From Amaurobius ferox (Eukaryota; Arthropoda; Arachnida; Araneae; Amaurobiidae), in assembly GCA_951213105.1 (NCBI GenBank), contig OX578140.1:122695985-122759984 (forward strand): DNA of 64,000 nt, read 5' to 3'. Below the pieces are notes generated by a model that was not told the origin of the DNA, searched no databases, and saw only the letters and a program-made list of their open reading frames with translations. The position numbers were made by a program, and so were the translations under genes. How positions within the stretch are numbered: position 1 is the stretch's first letter; every line of letters begins with the position of its first letter. Below, one piece after another: positions 1,861 to 55,822 of the stretch.

Positions 1861-3602
1861 AAAATTTCAAAAGCAATAGTACGGCAAAAGTTTTGTAACA
1901 AAATAAATTATTGCCTTTCGCCATAATTTGATTTTAAATGCATAATGTCTAGTGAATGTTAAGAAAATGTCTTACATAGTATAATTTACGGATTTCAGTG
2001 GCATTTTAAAAATTATACGATGAGAACTTACTTTATAAACAAACAAGCCCTACATGCGACAGGACTTACATATAAAGTTAAAAAATTCCATCCCACCCGC
2101 TCGACTGCAGCACTTGTGCTCCTAATACCCTCGAGCAGGTGAAAGCCATGCACCTCTCTCATTATTATTATTATCATTATTATTATTATTATTGCTCTTC
2201 GACACCCTATCGACATTATTACTATACCATCCCCTTACAAATCGCAATTAGTTTACAAAGCAATAGATCCCCCCCCCCTCCTACACTAAAAAAAATAGAG
2301 AGAGTACCTATCTCAAAGACAATAAAAACTCAATATCTTTCGAATCAAAAGCATTAATTCTCCTAAAGCGACAAAAATTGTCAAAGAAATTGACCTTATT
2401 TTTTAAGAAATTGAATTTTCATCAATTTAACGTTATTTTTGCTAATTTAATGTCATTTTTTGTCGATTTGGCGACATTTTTCAAAAGTCGCCACGATGGT
2501 GATATTTCACCAAATTTGTAGCTTAATTTACAGCCAAGATTGCCAAATCGTAGTCAAAGTTGTGGCCAAGCGTCCCATAAAGTCGCTTTTGAACTCATAA
2601 AATTATTTTTTCTGTTATTTCGATAAGTTTCAAATTTCAAAAAGCATGCTTGATAGTTAGTAAAAATATCTAATGTATTCAACACATAACCTTTCGTACC
2701 AACCCACGATTTCTTATGTCGTAAGAGAACAAAAACAAATGTCTTGTGTGTAAGTCACAACTTAACTTTTTCACACATATGAATTTCACGCCGTTAGGTC
2801 CATTTGTAATAGAATGAGAGAATTATACAGAGTTTTGAGCTTTCGAGCATAAGTTATTCCTGTAAAAAAAGAAAATTCCTTAAAATAATTCAAATTTATT
2901 TTTTCAATTTGGCAAATGACCAATCACACCAAATAGTTCTATGCACTTAACAGATTTATGTTAATCATGGAGTTAAAAAGAAGAAGATAAAACCAACGAG
3001 CTTACGGATGTATAACTTATATATGGACTTATAATCTTGTTGGATAAAACACCTATGAATGAAACGCTTAAAAATGCAATAAAGCTTTGAGAATTATATC
3101 TAGGTGTCACTAGTGTGTGCAAAGTAGCTGCTATTGTTAGTTGACACAACAGGAAGGCGTAGTGTTTAATATATGTATTTTTGATTATTTTTAAATTAAG
3201 GATACCCTAATTATGAGTATAATTAACCAGTATTTTTCCTTTGTACGATAGAGTACAGAATATATGGAGATAAAAATAAATTGAAAGGTAAAAATAATTT
3301 TGAATACGTAGAAATATTCGTTATTGTTTAAGTTCTACTTTGCATTGTTCTCATAATTTATTTCTACAAAATAGCCAGCCTAAATAAATATTTTAGGCCG
3401 TTCGCCATAAAAATGCGCCAACTGAATTATTGTCTCAAACGGTATTGGCGTTTTCTTAATGCAAAGTTTTAACTCTTATTTTTACCTGCATGGTGTTAGT
3501 ATATACCGTTTTAATAAAACATATTTTAATATCCTTCAAACTATAATTTGCCCTCAAAGACTATACATCTACCATTTTTCCAGTAACTGGCATTGTTCAT
3601 CC
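1861..3602. other. Mostly unclassified; ATT microsatellite and old repeat remnant
   Basis: An (ATT)n-like microsatellite lies at about 2,158-2,194. A diverged family-1-like stretch rich in TTGGCGACATTT-type words lies at about 2,395-2,590. The remainder is AT-rich with no support for a gene. Confidence 0.5.
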
Positions 3603-4452
3603 AATAAAAAAACTCTGTGGACAGCACATGACTCTACCTACCTCTGTTACTTCATTCACGGCGAAAGAATAGTGTACAAGTTCCACGGCACAGTGCTTTT
3701 GGCATTACATAAAAGTAATTTAAAATTAGCAATTTTCGTATTTATGAGTCCAAACGAATGACGTATTCATACTCACGTGCAAAACACTCATCAGAATTCA
3801 ATTAACTGATAATTAACATAAATTGAATGAAATAAATGACTATTGGTGAGTTCTTGAGCATCAGAATATACAAACCGATTACGAAAATTATCTTCTCCCG
3901 TGAATGAAACGATCAAGATTCACGAAAATGATGTTGCCCAATATTGCATTTTAATTTTATATAATTTTTTTTTATAAATTTATTTGAAAAACTTGCAATA
4001 CCTCGAAGAAGATTCCAAAGTTTATTTCATTCGTTTTCTAATAATAAATTATGCCTATCATAATTATGATTTTCTCATTATTGAAAATGCTGATTTTTTA
4101 GTGAGTTTTTTAAATATTCATTCAAAAATTGGCAGCTTTCGAGCTTTCGATCGTATTTAAAATCAATAGGATTCCAGTATTTACTGATTGCAATAACCGT
4201 ACCAAATTATATTCAAAACGTTTTTATTCCTTCGTAATATATCGCGTCCACAGACTTGAGAATATACACACACACTGACATTCATGCACACACTAGTATG
4301 CATATACACACGCAACAACATCATTTCAAAAACGTTCCATTCGAGTTTAAGGCTACTTAAAATATGCTCTTCCATCGTAAACTTGAATTCGAATTTCCAA
4401 CCCCGTCACAATTTTTTAACTATACATTATACTAAGTATGTAGGGAAAGTAA
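3603..4452 (+). repeat. Family-1 repeat, diverged copy
   Basis: Landmarks in order match family 1: GTGGACAGCACATGACT near 3,618, AAATGACTATTGG near 3,835, a TCGTGAATG-like block with AACGA near 3,900, the TTCCAGTATT block near 4,170, an ACACAC core near 4,270, and CCCCGTCACAAT followed by a terminal hairpin ending near AGGGAAAGTAATG. It is clearly older than the copies at 4,540 and 60,148. Confidence 0.65.
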
Positions 4453-29814: not shown

Positions 29815-29870
29815 ATGCTTTGGGGAGGCGACTTTCTGGTCGAAAATATCCTTCAACAAACAAGAACACC
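29815..29870 (+). pseudogene. Tc1-like transposase fragment, left of the Polinton
   Basis: In the frame GAT GCT TTG GGG the sequence reads DALGRRLSGRKYPSTNKNT, the segment that follows the catalytic DPNLNPIEHxWD motif in Tc1-family transposases. It is cut at codon NT by the palindromic Polinton and continues in the same frame at 40,218 once one target duplication is removed. Upstream of 29,815 the frame meets a stop, so only an internal-to-C-terminal fragment survives. No function is expected. Confidence 0.85.
29865..29870. repeat. Target site duplication, left copy (AACACC)
   Basis: Six bases immediately outside the left terminus AGTAGGGGAT. Identical to 40,212-40,217. Six-base duplications are the hallmark of Polinton integrase. 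Confidence 0.93.
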
Positions 29871-30184
29871 AGTAGGGGATTAGGGAGAGTTCAGCGGCAC
29901 TTCAGAGGCGGTGAATCCCTATACTTTAACATGGGGAACCCTCCGAGGCCAGAAAATGAGTGCATCAAGAGAGGCGGTGGTAAAGTCCCATGCTTTAACA
30001 TAGGGGTTCTCAGAAGTCGGTGTGAGGCAGCACAGTTCCATAAGGTGACGTCACAGAAGAGAGTGGAGTTTATGACGTATATTGTTTTTCCCTTTTAAGT
30101 GTTAATGTTTTAAAAATTTCGTAAATGTAAGTTTTTTCTTTTTTTTTTTTTCAACAAGTTGGATTTTGAGGGTTGTTGGATTTC

Positions 30185-30600
30185 TCTATGGGAAATAACA
30201 TGAATTTTTAAGAAAGTGTCACTTTTAGCGTTTTTTCACAAAAAGTTTCAAAAACGTTAAAAAACAACAAAAATGTACGTTTTTAAAATAAATTGTGGTT
30301 TTTAGATTGTTTGAATTCTCTATGGGAAATAACATGGGTTTTCGCACTTTTGTGTATTTTTTGTAAAAAAAATGTGCGTTTTTGCAAAAGTGTTACCAAA
30401 AAAGCGTTTTTTGAAAAATGTGACATTTTGCGATTTTTTTTCAAAATGCCGTTTTCTCTATGGGAATTAACATAGGTTTTCGCACTTTTACATTTTTTTT
30501 TAAAAAATGTGCGTTTTTGCAAAAGTGTTACCAAAAATGCGTTTTTTGAAAAATGTGACATTTTGCGATTTTTTTCAAAAACACACTTTTTACTTGTAAA
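30185..30600. repeat. Polinton subterminal repeats, left arm
   Basis: Three to four imperfect units of about 120-145 bp, each with CTCTATGGGAA(A/T)TAACAT, TTTTCGCACTTTT, AATGTGCGTTTTTGCAAAAG and GACATTTTGCGATTTTTTTC. The mirror copy lies at about 39,482-39,897. An apparent 110-codon ORF here is repeat-derived. Confidence 0.85.
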
Positions 30601-30620
30601 AACTAAGAAAAACACGTTTT

Positions 30621-30800
30621 CAAAGTAGCAGAATCGTGTGAATCGGTGTTTTAAAGTAGTAGAATCGCGTGAATTGGTGTTTTAAAGTAGCAGAATCGCG
30701 TGAATTGGTATTTTAAAGTAGCAGAATCGCGTGAATTGGTGTTTTAAAGTAGCAGAATCGCATGAATTGATGTTTTAAAGTAGCAGAATCGCGTGAATCG
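30621..30800. repeat. 31-bp iterons (x6), left arm
   Basis: Six head-to-tail units of AAAGTAGCAGAATCGCGTGA plus ATTGGTGTTTT, about 750-930 bp inside the left terminus. Mirrored at 39,281-39,460. Iterons near a replicating end could bind a replication or packaging protein; that role is inference. Confidence 0.9.
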
Positions 30801-30957
30801 GGTGTATGGGAATCTCGAGAATCTCGGGGGTTTAAGGGGTATGTTTCCCCAATCCTTTCGTCTTGGATTTCAAAATTTAAATGCAGTAATGTCTTTTTAA
30901 GAAATTAGATGCTGTTAGAAAAATATATTATTTTTTTATTGTGGTCCCACCTCCACC

Positions 30958-30976
30958 CGGTGTATAGGATACACCG
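30958..30976. terminator. Hairpin downstream of the polymerase gene, left arm
   Basis: CGGTGTA-TAGGA-TACACCG forms a 7-bp stem with a 5-base loop about 65 bases past the polymerase stop. It follows an A-rich tract and is followed within about 20 bases by AATAAA (coding strand). It may take part in 3'-end formation. The mirror copy is at 39,105-39,123. Confidence 0.45.
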
Positions 30977-31039
30977 CCACAATCTCTATTTTTTTCTTTT
31001 TTTTCTTTTTTTTTTTCCTTCTTTCTCTTTTTCCTTTTT

Positions 31040-33787
31040 TTATTTTTTTATTTTAAAATGTCCGTAGGCATAACTTGTAATGCCGTCCTCGAGTAAATAT
31101 CTTTTGTCATCAATGGGTGACAAAGCCACCTTGTTCTGGCATACAGTGAATAGTTTATGATGGCTACTATCAATTCTAATCTGTTCTTCCATGGTAGGTC
31201 TAACACTCAACAGGCATTGTCTATAGTCATTATGTGTAATTTTCCGTGCAACCACATGTGTAGAAACACCTTTAGCTCTTTTCTTTTCTCCAGCAGCTGA
31301 TAGAATAGAGTACATTTTAGGTCTAAGTCCTATAAACTCTTGAATGGGGGTTGAATTCAGTTCATCTTTAAAATATCCAATACGCTTTTTATTGTCTTCA
31401 CTGAAGAGGGGATGATCCTTGGGATAGTCAGAAAAATCATACAAGTGTTTATGCTGGTTCACATCTTCATAAATATCAGCAGTTTGGATTTCATAAGCCA
31501 ATGAATCAGTATCGGTGAAGAGAAGAGAAGCTTTTTCACCATATTGGCTTTTAATATGTTTATAATGAAACTCATACATCAGGAGTTTAGATAACTCCAA
31601 GATAGCAAAGCCAACGTATATAGGCCGGTTCATTAAAATGCAATTCCTTACACGTTCAACACCCACCAGATCTTCGCTAAAAATCCTGATAGCTCTAAAA
31701 GCTGGAGATGCCACCACCTTCAGGGCCCGCTTTGAAGAATTCACTAGTTCAATATTCACTCGATTTCGAAGATTCTCCATCGTTTTTCCAAACACAGCGT
31801 TATTAAGCAATTTAAAAAAGTCTTTCTCAAAATTAGTCTTTGCCTTCCTTCTTTCTTCTGTGTTAAATTGGATGTATTTCTCCAACCAGGGCTTCTGATT
31901 AAATTTTAAGGTCTTGTGAATTTTCTTGAGTCTTAAACCTAATGATAGGTATAGCTGAAGGTTCCGATAATGAACAATATAATGTTTCTTGTCATGCAGA
32001 TTGGGTACCAATTTCGTAGTACTAACAAAATGTCCATGATGTAACTGTTGAACTAGTCGTTCAGCATAGGGGGAGAGCATTTCTCGTTCAATCTTCACCC
32101 TTTCAGGGGCTAGAGGGTATTCATTATGATAATCATGTAAGGATTCAGGATACTCCAGATCCACTTCAAATATATAGCCCTCTTGGGTATTATCCTTTAG
32201 ACTCATTATCCAGAATTCATTCAAATTTTCTGTAGATATCCATTCAAAGCCACCATAGGGCAGTGGTTGAGACATGGCCCAACCATATAGGTTATTAGCA
32301 TCAAGATAGATAATGTGCTTATCAGGCTTAGAAGAATCGTAATTTTCCAAATAACGATTATTAGCCTCGGATCTACGCTGACTTATCATACATATGCCAC
32401 CGCGGATTCCACGTTCTATAAACAGTAACATATTTTCATCTGTGAGTAGTTCCAGGGTTTGCTCAGTCATTTTCAAAGAGGCCTGCCAAGCCAGTCCAGG
32501 GGCGGTCATCATATGAGCGGCATCCAAATCATAGTTCTTCTTGCAAATTTTTCGAAAATTCTCAAATACATCGGCTAATAGTAGCACATCTGTTTTCACA
32601 TACAGGTCGTGATATTCTCCCAAGTTCTTTATGTTGAAGGTATCCCATACAGTTTGGGCATGCCGATAATCTTCACTCTTAATATCTTCTCCTTTAATAT
32701 CATTATGAAATGCAGAAGGGGGAGGGAGTACATTTTCATCAAATTTTTGAAAGGATGTCATATAGCTATAGGGATATACTCCTTTCCTAATAAGAGCATT
32801 CTGTTGTACTATATCGGGGAAATGTTCTCTGAGAATATAAAATTCACTCAAGTCTAAATTGGAAACTAGCTTTTTCAGGGAAGCATTCAGAAACTGTAGG
32901 CTATCAATAAATTGTAAACAGACACGGGGCCCCTCTTTCTTTGAAATCTCAAAAGATATGTATTTTTCAATATTAGTGGCAATCACATCAATTTTATGGT
33001 CTTGCAATTTCCCAAAACTCAGCATAATATGATGAGAGTCATAATTTTTTAAATTATGAAACACTACAGGAATATTAATACTTTGTCTATAGTTAAGATT
33101 ACAGGCATTATGCAGGGCACCTCTATAGGCTCCAGTCACGTGATTGTGATCACGCACACGATCTGTTTTCAGTTCACGATGGCACACGTTACAATGGGTA
33201 GCTCTTTCAAAGTCAACTTCATTCTCTTTAGTCATTCGTAGTGGTTTAACATAACGTAATTTTTCTCCAAGATACTGTTTCTCCATTATCAAGTTGTTAA
33301 GAAAATGATTCACAGGGTCGATACCTCGATACACAGTAGCTTGTTTCAGGCATTTTCCATCAGGCCCTATAATAACATAAGCATATCCACAAGGTTCATG
33401 AATCGCTAGTCTATGCGTGTAAGATCTAATATTCGAGGGTTTAGTAGTGTCTTCTTTAACGATCAGGGCTTCAAAGTCAGCATAAATGATGAAAGGGATA
33501 GAATGCTGATACTGTTTGTTCGTGAATTGGAGATATTTCTGATCTTCCGAGGGCATTTTAATGCGCTGAGGTGCATGTTCTTTGCAATATTGAGCATGAT
33601 CTTGCAAAAGATCGTCTCTACTGTAACGATGTAAACATCTATAACATATATATTGGGCTCCATTGTGCTTAGTTATATCTCCCAGCAAGCGTGACATATT
33701 CCTTATGAGAGTATAGTGTTGCTTATCTTCATCACTAATCAGCAGGAGATTCACACAGTCTTCATCTTCACGTTTGGATATATGCAA
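31040..33787 (-). CDS. Polinton protein-primed DNA polymerase B, left-arm copy
   Basis: A 915-codon open frame with the full set of family B motifs. Exo I YADFEA lies at residues 102-107, Exo II FHNLKNYD at 243-250 and Exo III YVKTD at 396-400. Polymerase motif A DANNLYG is at 496-502, motif B FFKLLNNAVFGK at 657-668, motif C FTDTDS at 757-762 and KMY at 824-826. A CYRC...H...C finger lies near 48-68. An endonuclease-VII-like zinc motif (CNVC ... DHNHVTGAYRG ... HNACN, 199-230) precedes Exo II, as is usual in Polinton polymerases. It would copy the linear element from a protein primer in the nucleus. The frame has no ATG at its beginning (it opens at a TTG); the first ATG is codon 31. It is really the continuation of the zinc-finger frame just upstream, separated by a one-base frame change. 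All catalytic residues are intact. Confidence 0.93.
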   Translation of the reverse strand: MHISKREDEDCVNLLLISDEDKQHYTLIRNMSRLLGDITKHNGAQYICYRCLHRYSRDDLLQDHAQYCKEHAPQRIKMPSEDQKYLQFTNKQYQHSIPFIIYADFEALIVKEDTTKPSNIRSYTHRLAIHEPCGYAYVIIGPDGKCLKQATVYRGIDPVNHFLNNLIMEKQYLGEKLRYVKPLRMTKENEVDFERATHCNVCHRELKTDRVRDHNHVTGAYRGALHNACNLNYRQSINIPVVFHNLKNYDSHHIMLSFGKLQDHKIDVIATNIEKYISFEISKKEGPRVCLQFIDSLQFLNASLKKLVSNLDLSEFYILREHFPDIVQQNALIRKGVYPYSYMTSFQKFDENVLPPPSAFHNDIKGEDIKSEDYRHAQTVWDTFNIKNLGEYHDLYVKTDVLLLADVFENFRKICKKNYDLDAAHMMTAPGLAWQASLKMTEQTLELLTDENMLLFIERGIRGGICMISQRRSEANNRYLENYDSSKPDKHIIYLDANNLYGWAMSQPLPYGGFEWISTENLNEFWIMSLKDNTQEGYIFEVDLEYPESLHDYHNEYPLAPERVKIEREMLSPYAERLVQQLHHGHFVSTTKLVPNLHDKKHYIVHYRNLQLYLSLGLRLKKIHKTLKFNQKPWLEKYIQFNTEERRKAKTNFEKDFFKLLNNAVFGKTMENLRNRVNIELVNSSKRALKVVASPAFRAIRIFSEDLVGVERVRNCILMNRPIYVGFAILELSKLLMYEFHYKHIKSQYGEKASLLFTDTDSLAYEIQTADIYEDVNQHKHLYDFSDYPKDHPLFSEDNKKRIGYFKDELNSTPIQEFIGLRPKMYSILSAAGEKKRAKGVSTHVVARKITHNDYRQCLLSVRPTMEEQIRIDSSHHKLFTVCQNKVALSPIDDKRYLLEDGITSYAYGHFKIKK

Positions 33788-33800
33788 AGGAAAAATATCT

Positions 33801-34853
33801 TCATCTTCGTATCCATATACATATTCGTATATTATTCAATTTTTCAATCTGAGGAATCTTCACAACTGAGATAGGGTATTGAATATCTCCAAGTTTAATG
33901 TCATTTTCAAAACTTTTATAATGTGACACTCTTTCAGGCTTATATTCACGGGATATATAGTATTTGTGGGCTAATAGGCACCACACCAGGCATTTCTCGT
34001 CATCATTTCGAATATTGAGTAAAGCTTTCTTGGCTGCAAGTTTTGTTGGCAAGGGTATATAGCTAGAAGCCGCAAGAGGCTTATACTTTGCACAGAAAAC
34101 ATCTATCTTTCGCATCTTTTGTAAAGTCCATCCAGAGCCTCGGCTGACAAATTCTTCGAATAACTTCAAGATTTGTGAAAAAGCTTCTTCAGCATTGTTG
34201 GGAGGGGTATCATCACGAAGTTCTGTCACAACATCTGTTCTAAAATATGAGCTGGATACCTGTTGGCCATTTGCAACGTCACGAATAAATTGCACATCCG
34301 CAATAAGATACCACTTAATAGATCTGTATGCATCAAGTTCGTCTTTTAATATCTTCAATAGCTGAGGGCGAATTTCATCAAAACATAGCATAAGATCCCT
34401 CTCTACACTTTCAGTAGGTTCCAGAGTGTGTACAGAGAATACATCTAAACCCTTCTTCTTCTTCGCTGCAATCTTGGGGCGCTTATTAGAAGTTGAGGCT
34501 AAAGCAGGAGCTTTTCTCTTTTTAGAACCATGTTCAATACGCTGATGGCGCAGGGCATCACTTTTCTTGCTTAATATAAGTTCACAATGCATGCATTTCA
34601 CACCATCCTTCAGATGAAATAACAGGTGGCGCTTCAGGTTATCTCGTCTAGTAAACTGTATGGAGCATTGAGTGCATTCAAACACTTTAACGGGAGAATG
34701 CATATTCGCATGTCTAGCCAAGTCTTCCTTACGAACAAATGCACGTTCGCATACTTTACATCGATAAGTCAAGGCATCATCGTCAGAATGAATCTTCATA
34801 TGTCTTGCTAAGGCATCTTTTCTGGAAAAGTGCTTATTACAAGATAAACACAT
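33801..34853 (-). CDS. C2H2 zinc-finger N-terminal part of the Polinton polymerase, left arm
   Basis: 350 codons from an ATG at the very inner end of the arm. Four C2H2 fingers lie in residues 2-110 (CLSCNKHFSRKDALARH, CKVCERAFVRKEDLARH, CTQCSIQFTRRDNLKRH, CMHC...RHQRIEH). A basic KKRKAP/KKKKG stretch near 112-140, a possible nuclear signal, follows, then a region ending FENDIKLGDIQYP...KLNNI. That region is found just before the polymerase proper in related elements. The stop lies 14 bases before the polymerase frame; shifting one base at the ATATGTATATGG stretch joins the two frames. I interpret it as the N-terminal part of one large polymerase polypeptide, split by an old frameshift that is also present in the other arm. 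DNA binding by the fingers is inferred. Confidence 0.85.
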   Translation of the reverse strand: MCLSCNKHFSRKDALARHMKIHSDDDALTYRCKVCERAFVRKEDLARHANMHSPVKVFECTQCSIQFTRRDNLKRHLLFHLKDGVKCMHCELILSKKSDALRHQRIEHGSKKRKAPALASTSNKRPKIAAKKKKGLDVFSVHTLEPTESVERDLMLCFDEIRPQLLKILKDELDAYRSIKWYLIADVQFIRDVANGQQVSSSYFRTDVVTELRDDTPPNNAEEAFSQILKLFEEFVSRGSGWTLQKMRKIDVFCAKYKPLAASSYIPLPTKLAAKKALLNIRNDDEKCLVWCLLAHKYYISREYKPERVSHYKSFENDIKLGDIQYPISVVKIPQIEKLNNIRICIWIRR

Positions 34854-34856
34854 CTG

Positions 34857-34922
34857 AAATGTATTACATTGTTACCGAGAATAGCGTGTTTATACTAAGG
34901 TCTTGTATTTTTTTATCTCTTG
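34857..34922. other. Unique 66-bp centre of the Polinton palindrome
   Basis: The only part of the element not mirrored. On the right-arm side it ends TTTTTTTATCTCTTGCAG, a very good 3' splice acceptor directly before the zinc-finger frame. On the other strand the left arm is preceded by TACATTTCAG, a weaker acceptor-like end. This suggests the palindrome formed close to an intron-exon boundary of the ancestral gene. If both polymerase copies are expressed, their promoters would have to lie here or in cryptic sites. Confidence 0.8.
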
Positions 34923-34925
34923 CAG

Positions 34926-35978
34926 GTGTGTTTATCTTGTAATAAGCACTTTTCCAGAAAAGATGCCTTAGCAAGACATATGAAGATTCATTCTGACGAT
35001 GATGCCTTGACTTATCGATGTAAAGTATGCGAACGTGCATTTGTTCGTAAGGAAGACTTGGCTAGACATGCGAATATGCATTCTCCCGTTAAAGTGTTTG
35101 AATGCACTCAATGCTCCATACAGTTTACTAGACGAGATAACCTGAAGCGCCACCTGTTACTTCATCTGAAGGATGGTGTGAAATGCATGCATTGTGAACT
35201 TATATTCAGCAAGAAAAGTGATGCCCTGCGCCATCAGCGTATTGAACATGGTTCTAAAAAGAGAAAAGCTCCTGCTTTAGCCTCAACTTCTAATAAGCGC
35301 CCCAAGATTGCAGCGAAGAAGAAGAAGGGTTTAGATGTATTCTCTGTACACACTCTGGAACCTACTGAAAGTGTAGAGAGGGATCTTATGCTATGTTTTG
35401 ATGAAATTCGCCCTCAGCTATTGAAGATATTAAAAGACGAACTTGATGCATACAGATCTATTAAGTGGTATCTTATTGCGGATGTGCAATTTATTCGTGA
35501 CGTTGCAAATGGCCAACAGGTATCCAGCTCATATTTTAGAACAGATGTTGTGACAGAACTTCGTGATGATACCCCTCCCAACAATGCTGAAGAAGCTTTT
35601 TCACAAATCTTGAAGTTATTCGAAGAATTTGTCAGCCGAGGCTCTGGATGGACTTTACAAAAGATGCGAAAGATAGATGTTTTCTGTGCAAAGTATAAGC
35701 CTCTTGCGGCTTCTAGCTATATACCCTTGCCAACAAAACTTGCAGCCAAGAAAGCTTTACTCAATATTCGAAATGATGACGAGAAATGCCTGGTGTGGTG
35801 CCTATTAGCCCACAAATACTATATATCCCGTGAATATAAGCCTGAAAGAGTGTCACATTATAAAAGTTTTGAAAATGACATTAAACTTGGAGATATTCAA
35901 TACCCTATCTCAGTTGTGAAGATTCCTCAGATTGAAAAATTGAATAATATACGAATATGTATATGGATACGAAGATGA
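34926..35978 (+). CDS. C2H2 zinc-finger N-terminal part of the Polinton polymerase, right arm
   Basis: Mirror copy of 33,801-34,853 with the same four fingers and the same terminal frameshift. It differs from the left copy by a GTG in place of the first ATG and by two residues seen in translation: Leu for Phe in finger 3 (HLLLH) and Phe for Leu in finger 4 (CELIFSKK). With GTG instead of ATG it has no obvious start codon of its own, but it follows a strong splice acceptor (TCTCTTGCAG) and could be an internal exon of a longer transcript. Since the upstream sequence is the opposite arm, normal expression is doubtful. Confidence 0.8.
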   Translation: MCLSCNKHFSRKDALARHMKIHSDDDALTYRCKVCERAFVRKEDLARHANMHSPVKVFECTQCSIQFTRRDNLKRHLLLHLKDGVKCMHCELIFSKKSDALRHQRIEHGSKKRKAPALASTSNKRPKIAAKKKKGLDVFSVHTLEPTESVERDLMLCFDEIRPQLLKILKDELDAYRSIKWYLIADVQFIRDVANGQQVSSSYFRTDVVTELRDDTPPNNAEEAFSQILKLFEEFVSRGSGWTLQKMRKIDVFCAKYKPLAASSYIPLPTKLAAKKALLNIRNDDEKCLVWCLLAHKYYISREYKPERVSHYKSFENDIKLGDIQYPISVVKIPQIEKLNNIRICIWIRR

Positions 35979-35991
35979 AGATATTTTTCCT

Positions 35992-38900
35992 TTGCATATA
36001 TCCAAACGTGAAGATGAAGACTGTGTGAATCTCCTGCTGATTAGTGATGAAGATAAGCAACACTATACTCTCATAAGGAATATGTCACGCTTGCTGGGAG
36101 ATATAACTAAGCACAATGGAGCCCAATATATATGTTATAGATGTTTACATCGTTACAGTAGAGACGATCTTTTGCAAGATCATGCTCAATATTGCAAAGA
36201 ACATGCACCTCAGCGCATTAAAATGCCCTCGGAAGATCAGAAATATCTCCAATTCACGAACAAACAGTATCAGCATTCTATCCCTTTCATCATTTATGCT
36301 GACTTTGAAGCCCTGATCGTTAAAGAAGACACTACTAAACCCTCGAATATTAGATCTTACACGCATAGACTAGCGGGGCGCGGTAGCCCATTGGTTAGCG
36401 CGCTGGAGTTGCACTCGGTAGGCCCGGGTTCGATTCCAGCCACTGCCAAAACTGCCGCCGTGTTCATGCGGAGTACGATCACGTTAAACATGTGGGTCCG
36501 AAAGTCCTTCCGAGAGGTTGGTGGTAGGGGAAGGAGGGTACGGTCCCTGTGGATGCCTCCCCCACTGGGTTCCGGTCTAAATTGGGTGGCACTTCCCGAC
36601 CGTCCAAACAGTTACCTTACACCTTTCTGGTAGGTCGGACGGTCTGGGTTTCAACAACAACAACGCATAGACTAGCGATTCATGAACCTTGTGGATATGC
36701 TTATGTTATTATAGGGCCTGATGGAAAATGCCTGAAACAAGCTACTGTGTATCGAGGTATCGACCCTGTGAATCATTTTCTTAACAACTTGATAATGGAG
36801 AAACAGTATCTTGGAGAAAAATTACGTTATGTTAAACCACTACGAATGACTAAAGAGAATGAAGTTGACTTTGAAAGAGCTACCCATTGTAACGTGTGCC
36901 ATCGTGAACTGAAAACAGATCGTGTGCGTGATCACAATCACGTGACTGGAGCCTATAGAGGTGCCCTGCATAATGCCTGTAATCTTAACTATAGACAAAG
37001 TATTAATATTCCTGTAGTGTTTCATAATTTAAAAAATTATGACTCTCATCATATTATGCTGAGTTTTGGGAAATTGCAAGACCATAAAATTGATGTGATT
37101 GCCACTAATATTGAAAAATACATATCTTTTGAGATTTCAAAGAAAGAGGGGCCCCGTGTCTGTTTACAATTTATTGATAGCCTACAGTTTCTGAATGCTT
37201 CCCTGGAAAAGCTAGTTTCCAATTTAGACTTGAGTGAATTTTATATTCTCAGAGAACATTTCCCCGATATAGTACAACAGAATGCTCTTATTAGGAAAGG
37301 AGTATATCCCTATAGCTATATGACATCCTTTCAAAAATTTGATGAAAATGTACTCCCTCCCCCTTCTGCATTTCATAATGATATTAAAGGAGAAGATATT
37401 AAGAGTGAAGATTATCGGCATGCCCAAACTGTATGGGATACCTTCAACATAAAGAACTTGGGAGAATATCACGACCTGTATGTGAAAACAGATGTGCTAC
37501 TATTAGCCGATGTATTTGAGAATTTTCGAAAAATTTGCAAGAAGAACTATGATTTGGATGCCGCTCATATGATGACCGCCCCTGGACTGGCTTGGCAGGC
37601 CTCTTTGAAAATGACTGAGCAAACCCTGGAACTACTCACAGATGAAAATATGTTACTGTTTATAGAACGTGGAATCCGCGGTGGCATATGTATGATAAGT
37701 CAGCGTAGATCCGAGGCTAATAATCGTTATTTGGAAAATTACGATTCTTCTAAGCCTGATAAGCACATTATCTATCTTGATGCTAATAACCTATATGGTT
37801 GGGCCATGTCTCAACCACTGCCCTATGGTGGCTTTGAATGGATATCTACAGAAAATTTGAATGAATTCTGGATAATGAGTCTAAAGGATAATACCCAAGA
37901 GGGCTATATATTTGAAGTGGATCTGGAGTATCCTGAATCCTTACATGATTATCATAATGAATACCCTCTAGCCCCTGAAAGGGTGAAGATTGAACGAGAA
38001 ATGCTCTCCCCCTATGCTGAACGACTAGTTCAACAGTTACATCATGGACATTTTGTTAGTACTACGAAATTGGTACCCAATCTGCATGACAAGAAACATT
38101 ATATTGTTCACTATCGGAACCTTCAGCTATACCTATCATTAGGTTTAAGACTCAAGAAAATTCACAAGACCTTAAAATTTAATCAGAAGCCCTGGTTGGA
38201 GAAATACATCCAATTTAACACAGAAGAAAGAAAGAAGGCAAAGACTAATTTTGAGAAAGACTTTTTTAAATTGCTTAATAACGCTGTGTTTGGAAAAACG
38301 ATGGAGAATCTTCGAAATCGAGTGAATATTGAACTAGTGAATTCTTCAAAGCGGGCCCTGAAGGTGGTGGCATCTCCAGCTTTTAGAGCTATCAGGATTT
38401 TTAGCGAAGATCTGGTGGGTGTTGAACGTGTAAGGAATTGCATTTTAATGAACCGGCCTATATACGTTGGCTTTGCTATCTTGGAGTTATCTAAACTCCT
38501 GATGTATGAGTTTCATTATAAACATATTAAAAGCCAATATGGTGAAAAAGCTTCTCTTCTCTTCACCGATACTGATTCATTGGCTTATGAAATCCAAACT
38601 GCTGATATTTATGAAGATGTGAACCAGCATAAACACTTGTATGATTTTTCTGACTATCCCAAGGATCATCCCCTCTTCAGTGAAGACAATAAAAAGCGTA
38701 TTGGATATTTTAAAGATGAACTGAATTCAACCCCCATTCAAGAGTTTATAGGACTTAGACCTAAAATGTACTCTATTCTATCAGCTGCTGGAGAAAAGAA
38801 AAGAGCTAAAGGTGTTTCTACACATGTGGTTGCACGGAAAATTACACATAATGACTATAGACAATGCCTGTTGAGTGTTAGACCTACCATGGAAGAACAG

Positions 38901-39041
38901 ATTAGAATTGATAGTAGCCATCATAAACTATTCACTGTATGCCAGAACAAGGTGGCTTTGTCACCCATTGATGACAAAAGATATTTACTCGAGGACGGCA
39001 TTACAAGTTATGCCTACGGACATTTTAAAATAAAAAAATAA
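35992..39041 (+). pseudogene. Polinton DNA polymerase B, right-arm copy, split by a SINE
   Basis: Mirror copy of the left-arm polymerase. After Exo I (YADFEA) the frame is broken by a 287-bp SINE plus a 15-bp duplication at 36,376-36,677, in the codons for YTHRLA, about residue 127. Downstream of the SINE the frame is open again to the stop at 39,041 and keeps the EndoVII-like zinc motif, Exo II/III and all polymerase motifs. Two amino-acid differences from the left arm were seen: Glu for Lys at about residue 305 and Lys for Arg at about 647. The SINE happens to remain partly open in frame, so the apparent longer ORFs at its two edges are chimeric. Not expected to be functional. Confidence 0.92.
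36376..36662 (+). mobile_element. tRNA-derived SINE inserted in the right-arm polymerase
   Basis: The 5' head GGGCGCGGTAGCCCATTGG contains box A, and GGTTCGATTCC (36,427-36,437) is a perfect Pol III box B. A body shared with the SINEs at 44,302, 44,691 and 55,424 follows (GCCGCCGTGTTCATGCGGAG, CCTCCCCCACTGGGTTCCGG, GGTAGGTCGGACGGTCTGGG). The tail is (CAA)n. It is flanked by the 15-bp duplication ACGCATAGACTAGCG at 36,361-36,375 and 36,663-36,677. The uninterrupted site is visible in the left arm at 33,404-33,418, so the insertion occurred after the palindrome formed. Confidence 0.95.
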
Positions 39042-39104
39042 AAAAAGGAAAAAGAGAAAGAAGGAAAAAAAAAAAGAAAAAAAAGAAAAAAATAGAGATT
39101 GTGG

Positions 39105-39123
39105 CGGTGTATCCTATACACCG
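39105..39123. terminator. Hairpin downstream of the polymerase gene, right arm
   Basis: Exact mirror of 30,958-30,976, followed by AATAAA at about 39,141. Confidence 0.45.
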
Positions 39124-39280
39124 GGTGGAGGTGGGACCACAATAAAAAAATAATATATTTTTCTAACAGCATCTAATTTCTTAAAAAGACATTACTGCAT
39201 TTAAATTTTGAAATCCAAGACGAAAGGATTGGGGAAACATACCCCTTAAACCCCCGAGATTCTCGAGATTCCCATACACC

Positions 39281-39460
39281 CGATTCACGCGATTCTGCTA
39301 CTTTAAAACATCAATTCATGCGATTCTGCTACTTTAAAACACCAATTCACGCGATTCTGCTACTTTAAAATACCAATTCACGCGATTCTGCTACTTTAAA
39401 ACACCAATTCACGCGATTCTACTACTTTAAAACACCGATTCACACGATTCTGCTACTTTG
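39281..39460. repeat. 31-bp iterons (x6), right arm
   Basis: Mirror image of the left-arm iterons, with the same number of units and the same variants. Confidence 0.9.
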
Positions 39461-39481
39461 AAAACGTGTTTTTCTTAGTTT

Positions 39482-39897
39482 TTACAAGTAAAAAGTGTGT
39501 TTTTGAAAAAAATCGCAAAATGTCACATTTTTCAAAAAACGCATTTTTGGTAACACTTTTGCAAAAACGCACATTTTTTAAAAAAAAATGTAAAAGTGCG
39601 AAAACCTATGTTAATTCCCATAGAGAAAACGGCATTTTGAAAAAAAATCGCAAAATGTCACATTTTTCAAAAAACGCTTTTTTGGTAACACTTTTGCAAA
39701 AACGCACATTTTTTTTACAAAAAATACACAAAAGTGCGAAAACCCATGTTATTTCCCATAGAGAATTCAAACAATCTAAAAACCACAATTTATTTTAAAA
39801 ACGTACATTTTTGTTGTTTTTTAACGTTTTTGAAACTTTTTGTGAAAAAACGCTAAAAGTGACACTTTCTTAAAAATTCATGTTATTTCCCATAGAG
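39482..39897. repeat. Polinton subterminal repeats, right arm
   Basis: Mirror image of 30,185-30,600. A nearby A-run (39,930-39,943) is one base longer than its left counterpart, the only length difference between the arms apart from the SINE. Confidence 0.85.
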
Positions 39898-40211
39898 AAA
39901 TCCAACAACCCTCAAAATCCAACTTGTTGAAAAAAAAAAAAAAGAAAAAACTTACATTTACGAAATTTTTAAAACATTAACACTTAAAAGGGAAAAACAA
40001 TATACGTCATAAACTCCACTCTCTTCTGTGACGTCACCTTATGGAACTGTGCTGCCTCACACCGACTTCTGAGAACCCCTATGTTAAAGCATGGGACTTT
40101 ACCACCGCCTCTCTTGATGCACTCATTTTCTGGCCTCGGAGGGTTCCCCATGTTAAAGTATAGGGATTCACCGCCTCTGAAGTGCCGCTGAACTCTCCCT
40201 AATCCCCTACT

Positions 40212-40217
40212 AACACC
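40212..40217. repeat. Target site duplication, right copy (AACACC)
   Basis: Six bases immediately outside the right terminus CTAATCCCCTACT, identical to the left copy. Confidence 0.93.
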
Positions 40218-44301: not shown

Positions 44302-44680
44302 GACCGTGCTGAAAACACCGGTTCTCATTAGATCACCGAAGTCAAGCAGCATCAGGCGCGGTTAGTACTTGGGCGGGTGACCACCTGGGAACATCGCGTG
44401 CTGTTGGCACATTTCGGGTGCGATAGCCCGGTGGTTTGCGCGCTGGATTTGCACGCTGCCACAACTGCCGCCGTGTTCATGCGGAGTACGATCACGTTAA
44501 ACATGTGAGCGCGTAAGTCCTTCCGAGAGGTTGGTGGTAGGGGAAGGAGAGTACGGTCCCTGTGGATGCCTCCCCCACTGGGTTCCGGTCTAAATTGGGT
44601 GGCACTTCCCGGCCGTCCAAACAGTTACCGTACACCTTTCTGGTAGGTCGGACGGTCTGGGTCTCAACAACAACAACAAT
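44302..44680 (+). mobile_element. 5S/tRNA composite SINE, copy 1 of a same-site pair
   Basis: The head is a 5S rRNA sequence lacking its first dozen bases (from GACCGTGCTGAAAACACCGG to GCGTGCTGTTGGCA). It is joined to a tRNA-like piece GCGATAGCCCGGTGGTTTGC in which the box B region has been deleted. The common SINE body and (CAA)n tail follow. It is flanked by the target duplication (A)CAATTAAACCTTC. Confidence 0.92.
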
Positions 44681-44690
44681 TAAACCTTCG

Positions 44691-45078
44691 GGCCAACGGC
44701 CCTACGGTGTTGAAAACACCAGTTCTCGTTAGATCACCGAATTCAAGCAGCATCGGGCGCGGTTAGTACTTGGGTGGGTAACCACCTGGGAACACCGCGT
44801 GCTGTTGGCACATTTCGGGTGCGATAGCCCGGTGGTTTGCGCGCTGGATTTGCACGCTGCCACAACTGCCGCCGTGTTCATGCGGAGTACGATCACGTTA
44901 AACATGTGGGTCCGTCAGTCCTTCCGAGAGGTTGGTGGTAGGGGAAGAAGGGTACGGTTCCTGTGGATGCCTCCCCCACTGGGTTCTGGTCTAAATTGGG
45001 TGGCACTTCCCGGCCGACCAAACGGTTACCTTACACCGTTTTGGCAGGTCGGACGGCCTGGGTCCCAACAACAACAAC
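44691..45078 (+). mobile_element. 5S/tRNA composite SINE, copy 2 of a same-site pair
   Basis: Contains a complete 5S rRNA-like head (about 44,692-44,809) with the internal control region AAGCAGCATCGGGCGCGG and TTAGTACTTGGGTGGG, then the same tRNA-like piece without box B, body and (CAA)n tail. The same CAATTAAACCTTC word precedes and follows it, so the two SINEs share one target duplicated twice. The 5S part is pseudogenic relative to rRNA function but keeps the internal Pol III promoter. Confidence 0.92.
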
Positions 45079-54690: not shown

Positions 54691-55423
54691 CCTTATGTAA
54701 AAGGGTTTTAATGTTCCTTTGCTCTGCAATAAACTTATTTTTAATCAGTTTTTTAATTTCAAATTTGAAGAAATATATTTTCAAGTAAATTTCTGGTTTG
54801 TATGTAGAACCGAACTTCTTAACCAAAAGTCAAGGTCTTTCTATGCTTATTCATTTTGAGCACAAGAACAAAAAATAATTTTATTATTTTGTAGTCTCAT
54901 AGACCTTCAAGGAATGGACCCCAGGTTAGGAACCTCCTGATCTAAACTATAAGCAGTGCTGAGAATCTCTTCTAGTTCATGATAATTTTCAAGCTTTACA
55001 TTCCTTGAAGTTATCTGTGCACTTTTCAAAACTAACATAAATTTCTTGCAAACACTGATATTATATATTTTAGTTCAAAGGATATGTGGAAGCAAGAAAG
55101 ACAATCATAACAGTTTTTAATAACAACGTTTATCGCACTTCACAACTGATAAACTCTAATAAACCGAAAACTGGTCTACCGTTCTTGTTTACAGACCTTG
55201 GAACATTATTCCAAAGTTTAAAAAGCGGAATCTGCTCTAAACAGAATTCTGCTTAATATCCGATTTTAGTTTATCGTTAAACGTAACCTGCTCGCGTAGC
55301 TGGCACTTTTATTCAGACAGATTCGGTTGTATTTGACTGATGTGACCAATCGCGATGTCTATCATCAGTCGTTAAAAATCGCCAAGTTTTGCCAAGCGTT
55401 GCAAATAGACATGTCAAATTTAG
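54691..55423. other. No recognisable feature
   Basis: Unique AT-rich sequence. The short stretch 55,080-55,340 is less AT-rich but contains no supportable exon. The target duplication ATGTCAAATTTAG of the next SINE ends at 55,423. Confidence 0.45.
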
Positions 55424-55822
55424 TTGTTGAGACCCAGACCGTCCGACCTACCAGAAAGGTTTAAGGTAACTGTTTGGACGGCCGGGAAGTGCCACCCAAT
55501 TTAGACCGGAACCCAGTGGGGGAGGCATCCACAGGGACCGTACCCTCCTTCCCCTACCACCAACCTCTCGGAAGGACTTACGGACCCACATGTTTAACGT
55601 GATCGTACTCCGCATGAACACGCGGCAGTTGTGGCAGCGTGCAAATCCAGCGCGCAAACCACCGAGCTGCCGCGCCCGAAATGTGCCAACAGCACGCGGT
55701 GTTCCCAGGTGGAAACTCAACCGCGCCCGATGCTGCCTGATTTCGGTGATCTAACGAGAACCGGTGTCAGGCAGCATCGGGCGCGGTTAGTACTTGGTTG
55801 GGTGACCAAACTTGGGTGGGTG
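55424..55822 (-). mobile_element. 5S/tRNA composite SINE with inverted 5' end
   Basis: On the minus strand the copy has (CAA)n-derived tail TTGTTG, body, tRNA-like head without box B, and 5S head (to about 55,767). At that point a second 5S piece of about 55 bp (CAGGCAGCATCGGGCGCGG, TTAGTACTTGG) follows in the opposite orientation. The entire structure lies between identical ATGTCAAATTTAG duplications (55,411-55,423 and 55,823-55,835), so the inversion arose during insertion. Confidence 0.9.

Follow-up and report, generated by a model that had tools for sequence, protein, structure and literature searches.

A palindromic element of 10,341 bp lies within the 64,000-nucleotide stretch of Amaurobius ferox DNA analysed here (the window). 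With a probability of roughly two in three, we interpret it as an internally deleted copy belonging to a group of satellite transposons derived from Polintons/adintoviruses, in which the palindrome would be the normal form, replication would pass through a folded molecule and the integrase would be borrowed. The palindrome is the usual architecture of a high-copy family in this genome, and the window element is a shortened copy.

RESULTS

The palindrome in the window

The two arms, at 29871..34852 (minus strand) and 34927..40211 (plus strand), are inverted repeats of one another; the outer ends both read AGTAGGGGATTAGGGAGAGTTC, and AACACC adjoins each of them (29865..29870 on the left, 40212..40217 on the right). 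The left arm opens with the terminus AGTAGGGG..., followed by subterminal AT-rich repeats, 31-bp iterons and an outward-reading PolB gene, and about 5-6 iteron units are present in each arm (30618..30801 and 39280..39463). On the left, the PolB ORF (31040..33835, minus strand) is a 931-codon open stretch with an endonuclease VII-like patch and exonuclease and palm motifs, and the N-terminal part of the gene, comprising C2H2 zinc fingers and an N-terminal region, lies in another frame (33801..34871, minus strand). On the right, the N-terminal part is a 359-codon ORF (34899..35978, plus strand) and the remainder (35944..39041, plus strand) is split by an insert into ORFs at 35944-36633 and 36528-39041. 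In both arms, the PolB frame is interrupted at the same position, the junction of the two ORFs, and it is interrupted a second time in the right arm by the insert, a 287-nt sequence at 36376..36662 (plus strand) that is present in this arm only and is accompanied by a 14-15 nt duplication (ACGCATAGACTAGC[G]). Judged by eye from its tRNA-like head and AAC tail, the insert, on which the preliminary description is silent, appears to be SINE-like. The preliminary description had taken the palindrome to be real, its two halves to be alike and its outer ends to be flanked by a 6-bp duplication; the inverted-repeat arms with their few differences, the same termini, AACACC at both ends, and the iterons and zinc-finger and polymerase ORFs in either arm agree with it on each of these points.

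Alignment of the arms, a check proposed earlier, revealed 7 substitutions and one 1-base indel besides the 287-nt insert. The alignment consists of one block of 3,549 columns with 3 mismatches and the 1-base gap, and another of 1,456 columns with 4 mismatches, two of which lie in the final columns past exact pairing; the blocks overlap by the 15-nt insert duplication and run 7 nt beyond exact pairing at the centre. Exact pairing ends at 34852/34927 and a gap-free extension carries it to 34859/34920. The centre, previously given as 66 bp, does exist, but its unpaired length is 74 nt (34853..34926, from arm pairing and comparison of the joint) where exact pairing stops. Compared over 500 bases, the left flank and the reverse-complemented right flank have 28% ungapped identity, which is about chance; the assembler therefore did not create the palindrome by folding back a single flank.

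A high-copy family of palindromes

The exact 22-nt terminus has 190 forward and 187 reverse matches (377 in all) in the 3.56-Gb genome, and its reversed control has 0 matches in the same genome. Among 100 termini listed, 76 form 38 inward-facing pairs and 24 are single. Thirty of these pairs span 12.3-13.4 kb, six span 7.8-11.7 kb and two span 19.2 and 20.8 kb, the window element belonging to the short tail of the distribution. A search for other copies with a 121-nt centre query, which had been recommended, turned up numerous palindromes with a related centre: 40 scored matches were obtained among 976 candidates, the window element being one of them, and the other 39 fall at 22 sites, with 34 arranged by their coordinates as 17 inverted pairs 2-3 kb apart. 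The five single matches were fetched and proved to be three palindromes, one hybrid (see below) and one element without a right arm. In all searches of this kind, the scored matches are parts of longer candidate lists (40/976, 40/2,293, 38/12,487 and 128/8,321). The idea of a one-off defective by-product, folded at a centre of its own, is not supported in view of the 377 exact termini, the common length class, and the open PolB frames of many copies and the selection on PolB described below.

In all 12 palindromes for which both termini were retrieved, the window element among them, the 6-bp duplications are perfect and each is different. Since one such duplication surrounds the whole unit, the whole palindrome is the inserted unit, and the earlier proposal that it was preformed before integration holds for the window element and for 11 other palindromes. 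For the thirteenth palindrome, C12b, no recognisable ends were present in the pieces fetched. Polintons as a rule have 6-bp target-site duplications and AG...CT ends, and both were found in the 12 palindromes and in one hybrid. Terminal inverted repeats, another Polinton feature, are also present, at ~5-6.4 kb; those of Polintons are usually shorter. It had been suggested to look for full-length Polintons with this terminus, and none of the 38 listed pairs has the appearance of such a parent. The two pairs of 19-21 kb were considered as candidates and rejected, as each set of sampled points comprises PolB-A at one and gag-like sequence at the other, so that nested retroelements are likelier.

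Centre, loop and probable secondary deletions

The usual element has a median length of 12.7 kb, with two ~6-kb arms around a loop of ~490 nt, each arm consisting of the terminus, the 31-bp iterons, the outward zinc-finger/PolB gene and a further ~1.1 kb on the inner side. Ordinary copies have arms that run ~1.1 kb past the position of the window element's centre before the loop is reached. The loop boundary is common to copies C12a, C10a and C1a, and it fits in seven of ten further copies (C13a, C9a, C2a, C11b, C10c, C10e and the hybrid), as judged by the meeting point of inner-arm and loop matches; in some copies, the loop is longer or part-duplicated. Because the elements share loop and centre, the palindromes were not formed independently. 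Shorter centres also occur, with a spacer of ~150 nt in C11a, almost none in C10d, a short remnant in C12b and the 74 nt of the window. The window centre is an intron-like stretch of the right arm that ends in a 3' splice-site-like TTGCAG, and its joint overlaps with the ordinary arms by 3 nt (ACA), the overlap in C11a being 1 nt. By these joints, the short centres of the window element and C11a appear to have arisen by secondary deletion in the middle of the palindrome; some 2.8 kb of the usual centre is missing from the window copy, the loss dating from either before or after insertion. Formation of the window centre at a 9-nt homology was also considered and rejected: comparison with an ordinary arm shows a deletion-like ACA joint, and the homology is imperfect (7 of 9).

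The polymerase gene of the arms

Each arm contains one outward-reading gene. The zinc fingers and the polymerase belong to this single gene, since in copy C1a both lie in one stop-to-stop frame of 1,280 codons. A Pfam domain search identified the C2H2 fingers and placed the endonuclease VII-like patch just under the cut-off. The arm gene also contains the motifs DANNLYG, NNAVFGK and DTDS of family B polymerases. The Pfam model DNA_pol_B_2 had no match on the element sequences themselves, and several close relatives carry a precomputed DNA_pol_B_2 domain. Among the best 120 of 7,969 matches, the closest named relatives are spider proteins at 56-59%, and an entry named 'PolB, Parasteatoda house spider adintovirus' is 51% identical to the window PolB. 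The polymerase of the element is thus a protein-primed one of family B and of the Polinton type, as the preliminary description had recognised a Polinton polymerase. Viral contigs searched with the window PolB gave no match; searched with alignment A1, they gave two distant Polinton-like contigs, which served as a source of reference proteins. In the same alignment, Cys250 (C250) and His341 (H341) of the N-terminal region are invariant. A vOTU protease with Cys and His is described for Polinton polymerases in PMC11071308, and the two residues would fit these positions, the residue assignment being our own.

Concordance of the arms and selection on PolB

The left and right PolB of 13 elements were compared over 2,893-3,843 sites. 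They differ by 0-18 substitutions in 12 elements and by 43 in C2a, and in three of the 13 the two polymerase stretches have zero difference. The distance to the nearest arm belonging to a different element is 0.23-1.12%; by raw distance, a foreign arm is slightly nearer than the own partner in C12a (0.42 vs 0.47%) and C2a (1.07 vs 1.12%). In the phylogeny (IQ-TREE, 1,000 ultrafast bootstraps), the two arms of an element are each other's sister (a cherry) in 12 of the 13 cases, C2a being the exception, with a support of 90-100 in 11; for the window cherry none was printed, and its FastTree support is 0.998. When the labels were shuffled 1,000 times, the mean was 0.48 cherries and the maximum 5. 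Over the arms as a whole, mismatches number 86 across 5,075 columns in C2a and 54 across two blocks in C12a.

The mean dN/dS of PolB is 0.115 (range 0.03-0.44) across the 15 pairs formed by six elements whose PolB frames are open over their full length. Such ratios indicate that PolB is under purifying selection between copies, which in turn implies a polymerase used by the lineage. No in-frame stop was found in either arm of seven of the 13 palindromes, where C12b counts only over the part matched, its left arm being partial. C10a has one PolB arm open and the other cut by an insert, and the remaining five (the window element, C12a, C13a, C10d and C2a) have stops in the PolB frame of both arms. 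Copies whose two genes are seemingly broken alike, as in the window and C10d, may have been copied in trans.

The SINE-like inserts of the window element and C10a occupy the same site, are 99.65% identical and are each confined to one arm; the other copies examined have no such insert at that site. A single one-armed SINE inherited by both elements was considered and rejected, since the SNPs around each insert, duplication included, are those of the subclade to which its element belongs. These flanking variants are better explained by two independent insertions at a single preferred site, and the inserts therefore carry no information on arm homogenisation.

A second polymerase family and a hybrid element

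The hybrid at C10:136.36M has inner arms that are ~99% like those of A, the family of the window element. Its right arm carries an open 1,222-codon polymerase, PolB-B, which is 45% identical to PolB-A, together with a different terminus (AGTAGGGAATA..., the B terminus), and the target duplication AATGCT is present at both ends. The outer arms of the hybrid can hardly pair and yet its duplication is proper, so integration does not depend on a hairpin of full length. A PolB-B search returned 38 scored matches among 12,487 candidates, the query's own locus included, the others being 98-99% identical. No stop was found in 36 of the 38, and 18 of them form nine inverted pairs 2.3-3.0 kb apart; loop matches at C21:86.13M and C3:6.795M fall within such B/B pairs. 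The left end of one B/B copy begins with the B terminus, and its right end was not found at the place expected in the pieces fetched. From these arrangements, modules made up of a polymerase and its terminus seem to have been exchanged on a common centre.

Genes not found in the elements, and integrases elsewhere

Thirty reference proteins were matched against the ORFs of ten pieces of the elements. In nine pieces, only PolB was found; the tenth, the right half of C1a, gave PolB and one marginal integrase match, with none in the left half of C1a. An rve integrase was thus missing from nine of the ten pieces and marginal in one. Capsid proteins and a packaging ATPase were found in none of the ten, which for the capsid is a weak negative as the references are distant, and the same distant references detected no adintovirus virion genes alongside PolB in the element pieces. 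At the positive-control locus, which contributed its own proteins to the reference set, the comparison returned 21 integrase matches as well as ATPase, PLA2-like and KilA-N proteins. With PolB as the sole clear match in the element pieces, the earlier statement that only the polymerase end is retained stands.

Polinton-type integrases are encoded elsewhere in the genome, with 128 scored matches among 8,321 candidates and more than 30 open frames of 356 codons; by eye, none of the 128 has another within 20 kb. When their profile was compared with that of Polinton integrases, the probability was 99.65%. The six loci fetched are about 96% alike or more over 3.2 kb, and the integrase neighbours in them are an A32-type ATPase, a PLA2-like protein and KilA-N. 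One integrase has a PolB fragment about 4 kb away, putatively in the same element; this fragment is 45-52% like PolBs from other animals and resembles them more than it does A or B. The integrase-bearing elements, in which no capsid gene was recognised, may be complete adintoviruses. A two-segment virus, with PolB on the palindrome and the integrase on another segment, was also considered, and the PolB fragment near the sampled integrase makes it the less favoured arrangement. A satellite would lack a function of its cycle that a resident element supplies; the integrase, not convincingly found in the palindromes and encoded elsewhere in the genome, may be such a function. A need for integrase in trans, as proposed in the preliminary description, is plausible, with no convincing integrase in the pieces tested and adintovirus-type integrases elsewhere.

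DISCUSSION

A model for the palindromic elements

In the mechanism that we favour, PolB would start protein-primed synthesis at its own terminus, and the displaced strand would fold back on itself as a hairpin, the loop forming one end and the terminus the opposite one. In this folded form, the two arms would be the two strands of one duplex, so that mismatch repair or re-copying could keep them identical. Once refilled, the linear palindrome would be inserted by the integrase borrowed from resident adintovirus-type elements, leaving the 6-bp duplications. The first palindrome of the family may have arisen when a displaced strand copied itself, along the lines of the preliminary description. 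We infer the hairpin intermediate, the source of the arm identity and the provision of integrase in trans, and the identity could either be made in each replication round or arise by conversion after insertion. Taken further, the elements would be a virus-derived satellite lineage with the palindrome as its normal genome, arms kept identical in the folded form and the arm as a swappable unit of heredity (A/A, A/B, B/B), a proposal to which we give even odds. If true, the time of an insertion could be read from the differences between its left and right arms, in the way that LTRs date retrotransposons.

Assemblers tend to make errors in long palindromes, which is the one argument for regarding the element as an artefact in which a haplotype or a chimeric read was folded over at its centre. 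This is scarcely credible here, as unrelated flanks share a 6-bp duplication, the arms differ from each other and one of them contains an insert, and dozens of other sites, on contigs at least 100 Mb long, have the same architecture; a one-off artefact or misassembly was rejected on the duplications and flanks together with the terminus count and pair lengths. Protein-primed linear replicons also throw self-complementary derivatives, and the palindromes could be defective derivatives of a full-length Polinton or adintovirus with the same terminus, formed by repeated fold-back of displaced strands, which is the model of the preliminary description in a general form. In its favour, adintovirus-type elements with integrase exist in many open copies; we consider it unlikely. 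The single length class holding 30 of the 38 listed pairs, and the loop boundary shared by C12a, C10a and C1a and fitting in seven of ten further copies, mean that the centre was inherited rather than re-formed at random. Defective derivatives would also be hard to reconcile with a PolB under purifying selection between copies. Moreover, none of the 38 listed pairs resembles a full-length parent, the only two above 13.4 kb having gag-like sequence and PolB-A, and the PolB near one integrase is unlike both A and B.

An explanation that concerns the arms only is that their identity comes from gene conversion between inverted repeats in the chromosome and not from replication. There is a precedent in Galileo, where terminal inverted repeats are 98-100% identical within a copy and copying between repeats is invoked, also for their growth (PMC3573991). 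The three elements without any difference between their polymerase stretches would be in keeping with it. The arms of C2a and C12a, on the other hand, have diverged and both PolB frames are broken in each, so conversion after insertion did not keep their arms alike; the window element and C10a likewise keep a one-armed SINE-like insert, although these inserts may be recent. For the family as a whole, we find conversion in the chromosome decidedly improbable as the source of arm identity, and return to homogenisation in the folded form as the preferred reading.

Relation to known systems

Self-complementary derivatives of adenovirus and AAV are palindromic linear genomes of terminally primed replicons, and they are laboratory or defective genomes, not a lineage inherited by a host. 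There is also a resemblance to transpovirons and to linear plasmids of the pGKL/kalilo kind, which are not known to be palindromic or to be integrated with 6-bp duplications in an animal genome. In PMC11071308, they appear as linear, terminally repeated replicons that depend in part on a larger partner. Bidnaviridae combine a Polinton-derived PolB with terminal inverted repeats (PMC4061559, PMC11071308). Unlike the integrated palindromes described here, in which only PolB was recognised, they have capsid and helicase genes on ssDNA genomes. Galileo/Foldback elements are similar in their long terminal inverted repeats, the high identity of the repeats within a copy and the existence of chimeric copies (PMC3573991). 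They differ in having a P-superfamily transposase, duplications of 7 bp and repeats that reach ~1.2 kb, and their chimeras lack a shared duplication, whereas the A/B hybrid has one. PMC3573991 also touches briefly on how the inverted repeats of Polintons grow.

Polinton/Maverick elements and Adintoviridae have in common with the palindromes the zinc-finger/protein-primed PolB, the AG...CT ends, the 6-bp duplication and the inverted terminal repeats. The palindromes differ from them in having no convincing integrase, capsid or ATPase gene, and in a repeat that spans nearly the whole element including the polymerase, giving two PolB genes per element. As no convincing integrase and, with distant references, no capsid or ATPase gene was found, the elements are not filed as Polintons; they would work like a satellite of Polintons/adintoviruses. 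No description of palindromic Polintons was found among the titles and abstract openings searched, a scope outside which most subscription papers lie.

If this reading is right, a protein-primed virus lineage has given rise to a stable palindromic genome that is maintained by selection and, judging by the 377 termini, accounts for well over a hundred insertions. Hairpin replication, arm homogenisation and integrase sharing would then leave readable marks in every copy, the insertions would come with an LTR-like clock, and the modules of polymerase and terminus would be suggested to move between elements. It would also be a warning for annotation, since a PolB gene found in an animal genome would not have to be part of a complete Polinton.

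Variant and integrase-bearing elements

The element at G000:C10:136.36M (pieces L019 and L020) is a hybrid, in which one arm carries PolB-A, the polymerase of the window element's family, and the other carries PolB-B, the two being 45% identical; its inner arms are ~99% like A inner arms, and AATGCT is present at both outer sides. The two polymerases differ in their zinc-finger parts, yet the 31-bp iterons adjoining PolB-A (window 30618-30801) and PolB-B (L020:6860-7020) look nearly alike.

At G000:C24:64767313-64779417, the loop sequence is present as an inverted pair with 11.8 kb in between, in contrast to ordinary elements, where ~6-kb arms surround a ~490-nt loop. Past the loop of an element lacking the right arm (G000:C10:13.97M), fragments at L022:3184-3814 resemble a mariner/Tc-type transposase, as judged by eye only. 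Open adintovirus-type elements with integrase, A32-type ATPase, PLA2-like and KilA-N were found at many places in the genome (pieces L045-L050 and L057-L061), one of them with a PolB fragment nearby.

SINE-like insert in the PolB gene and its partial relatives

Three partial relatives of the SINE-like insert (window 44456-44675, 44857-45076 and 55423-55637) cover only insert positions 68-287, at 93-97%, and their head apparently differs from that of the insert. The insert itself occupies one common site, in one arm each, of two separate elements (window 36376-36662 and L012:3222-3508, 99.65% identity). The surrounding duplications bear the SNP of the respective host element. The shared site in two elements suggests an insertion hot spot within the PolB gene.
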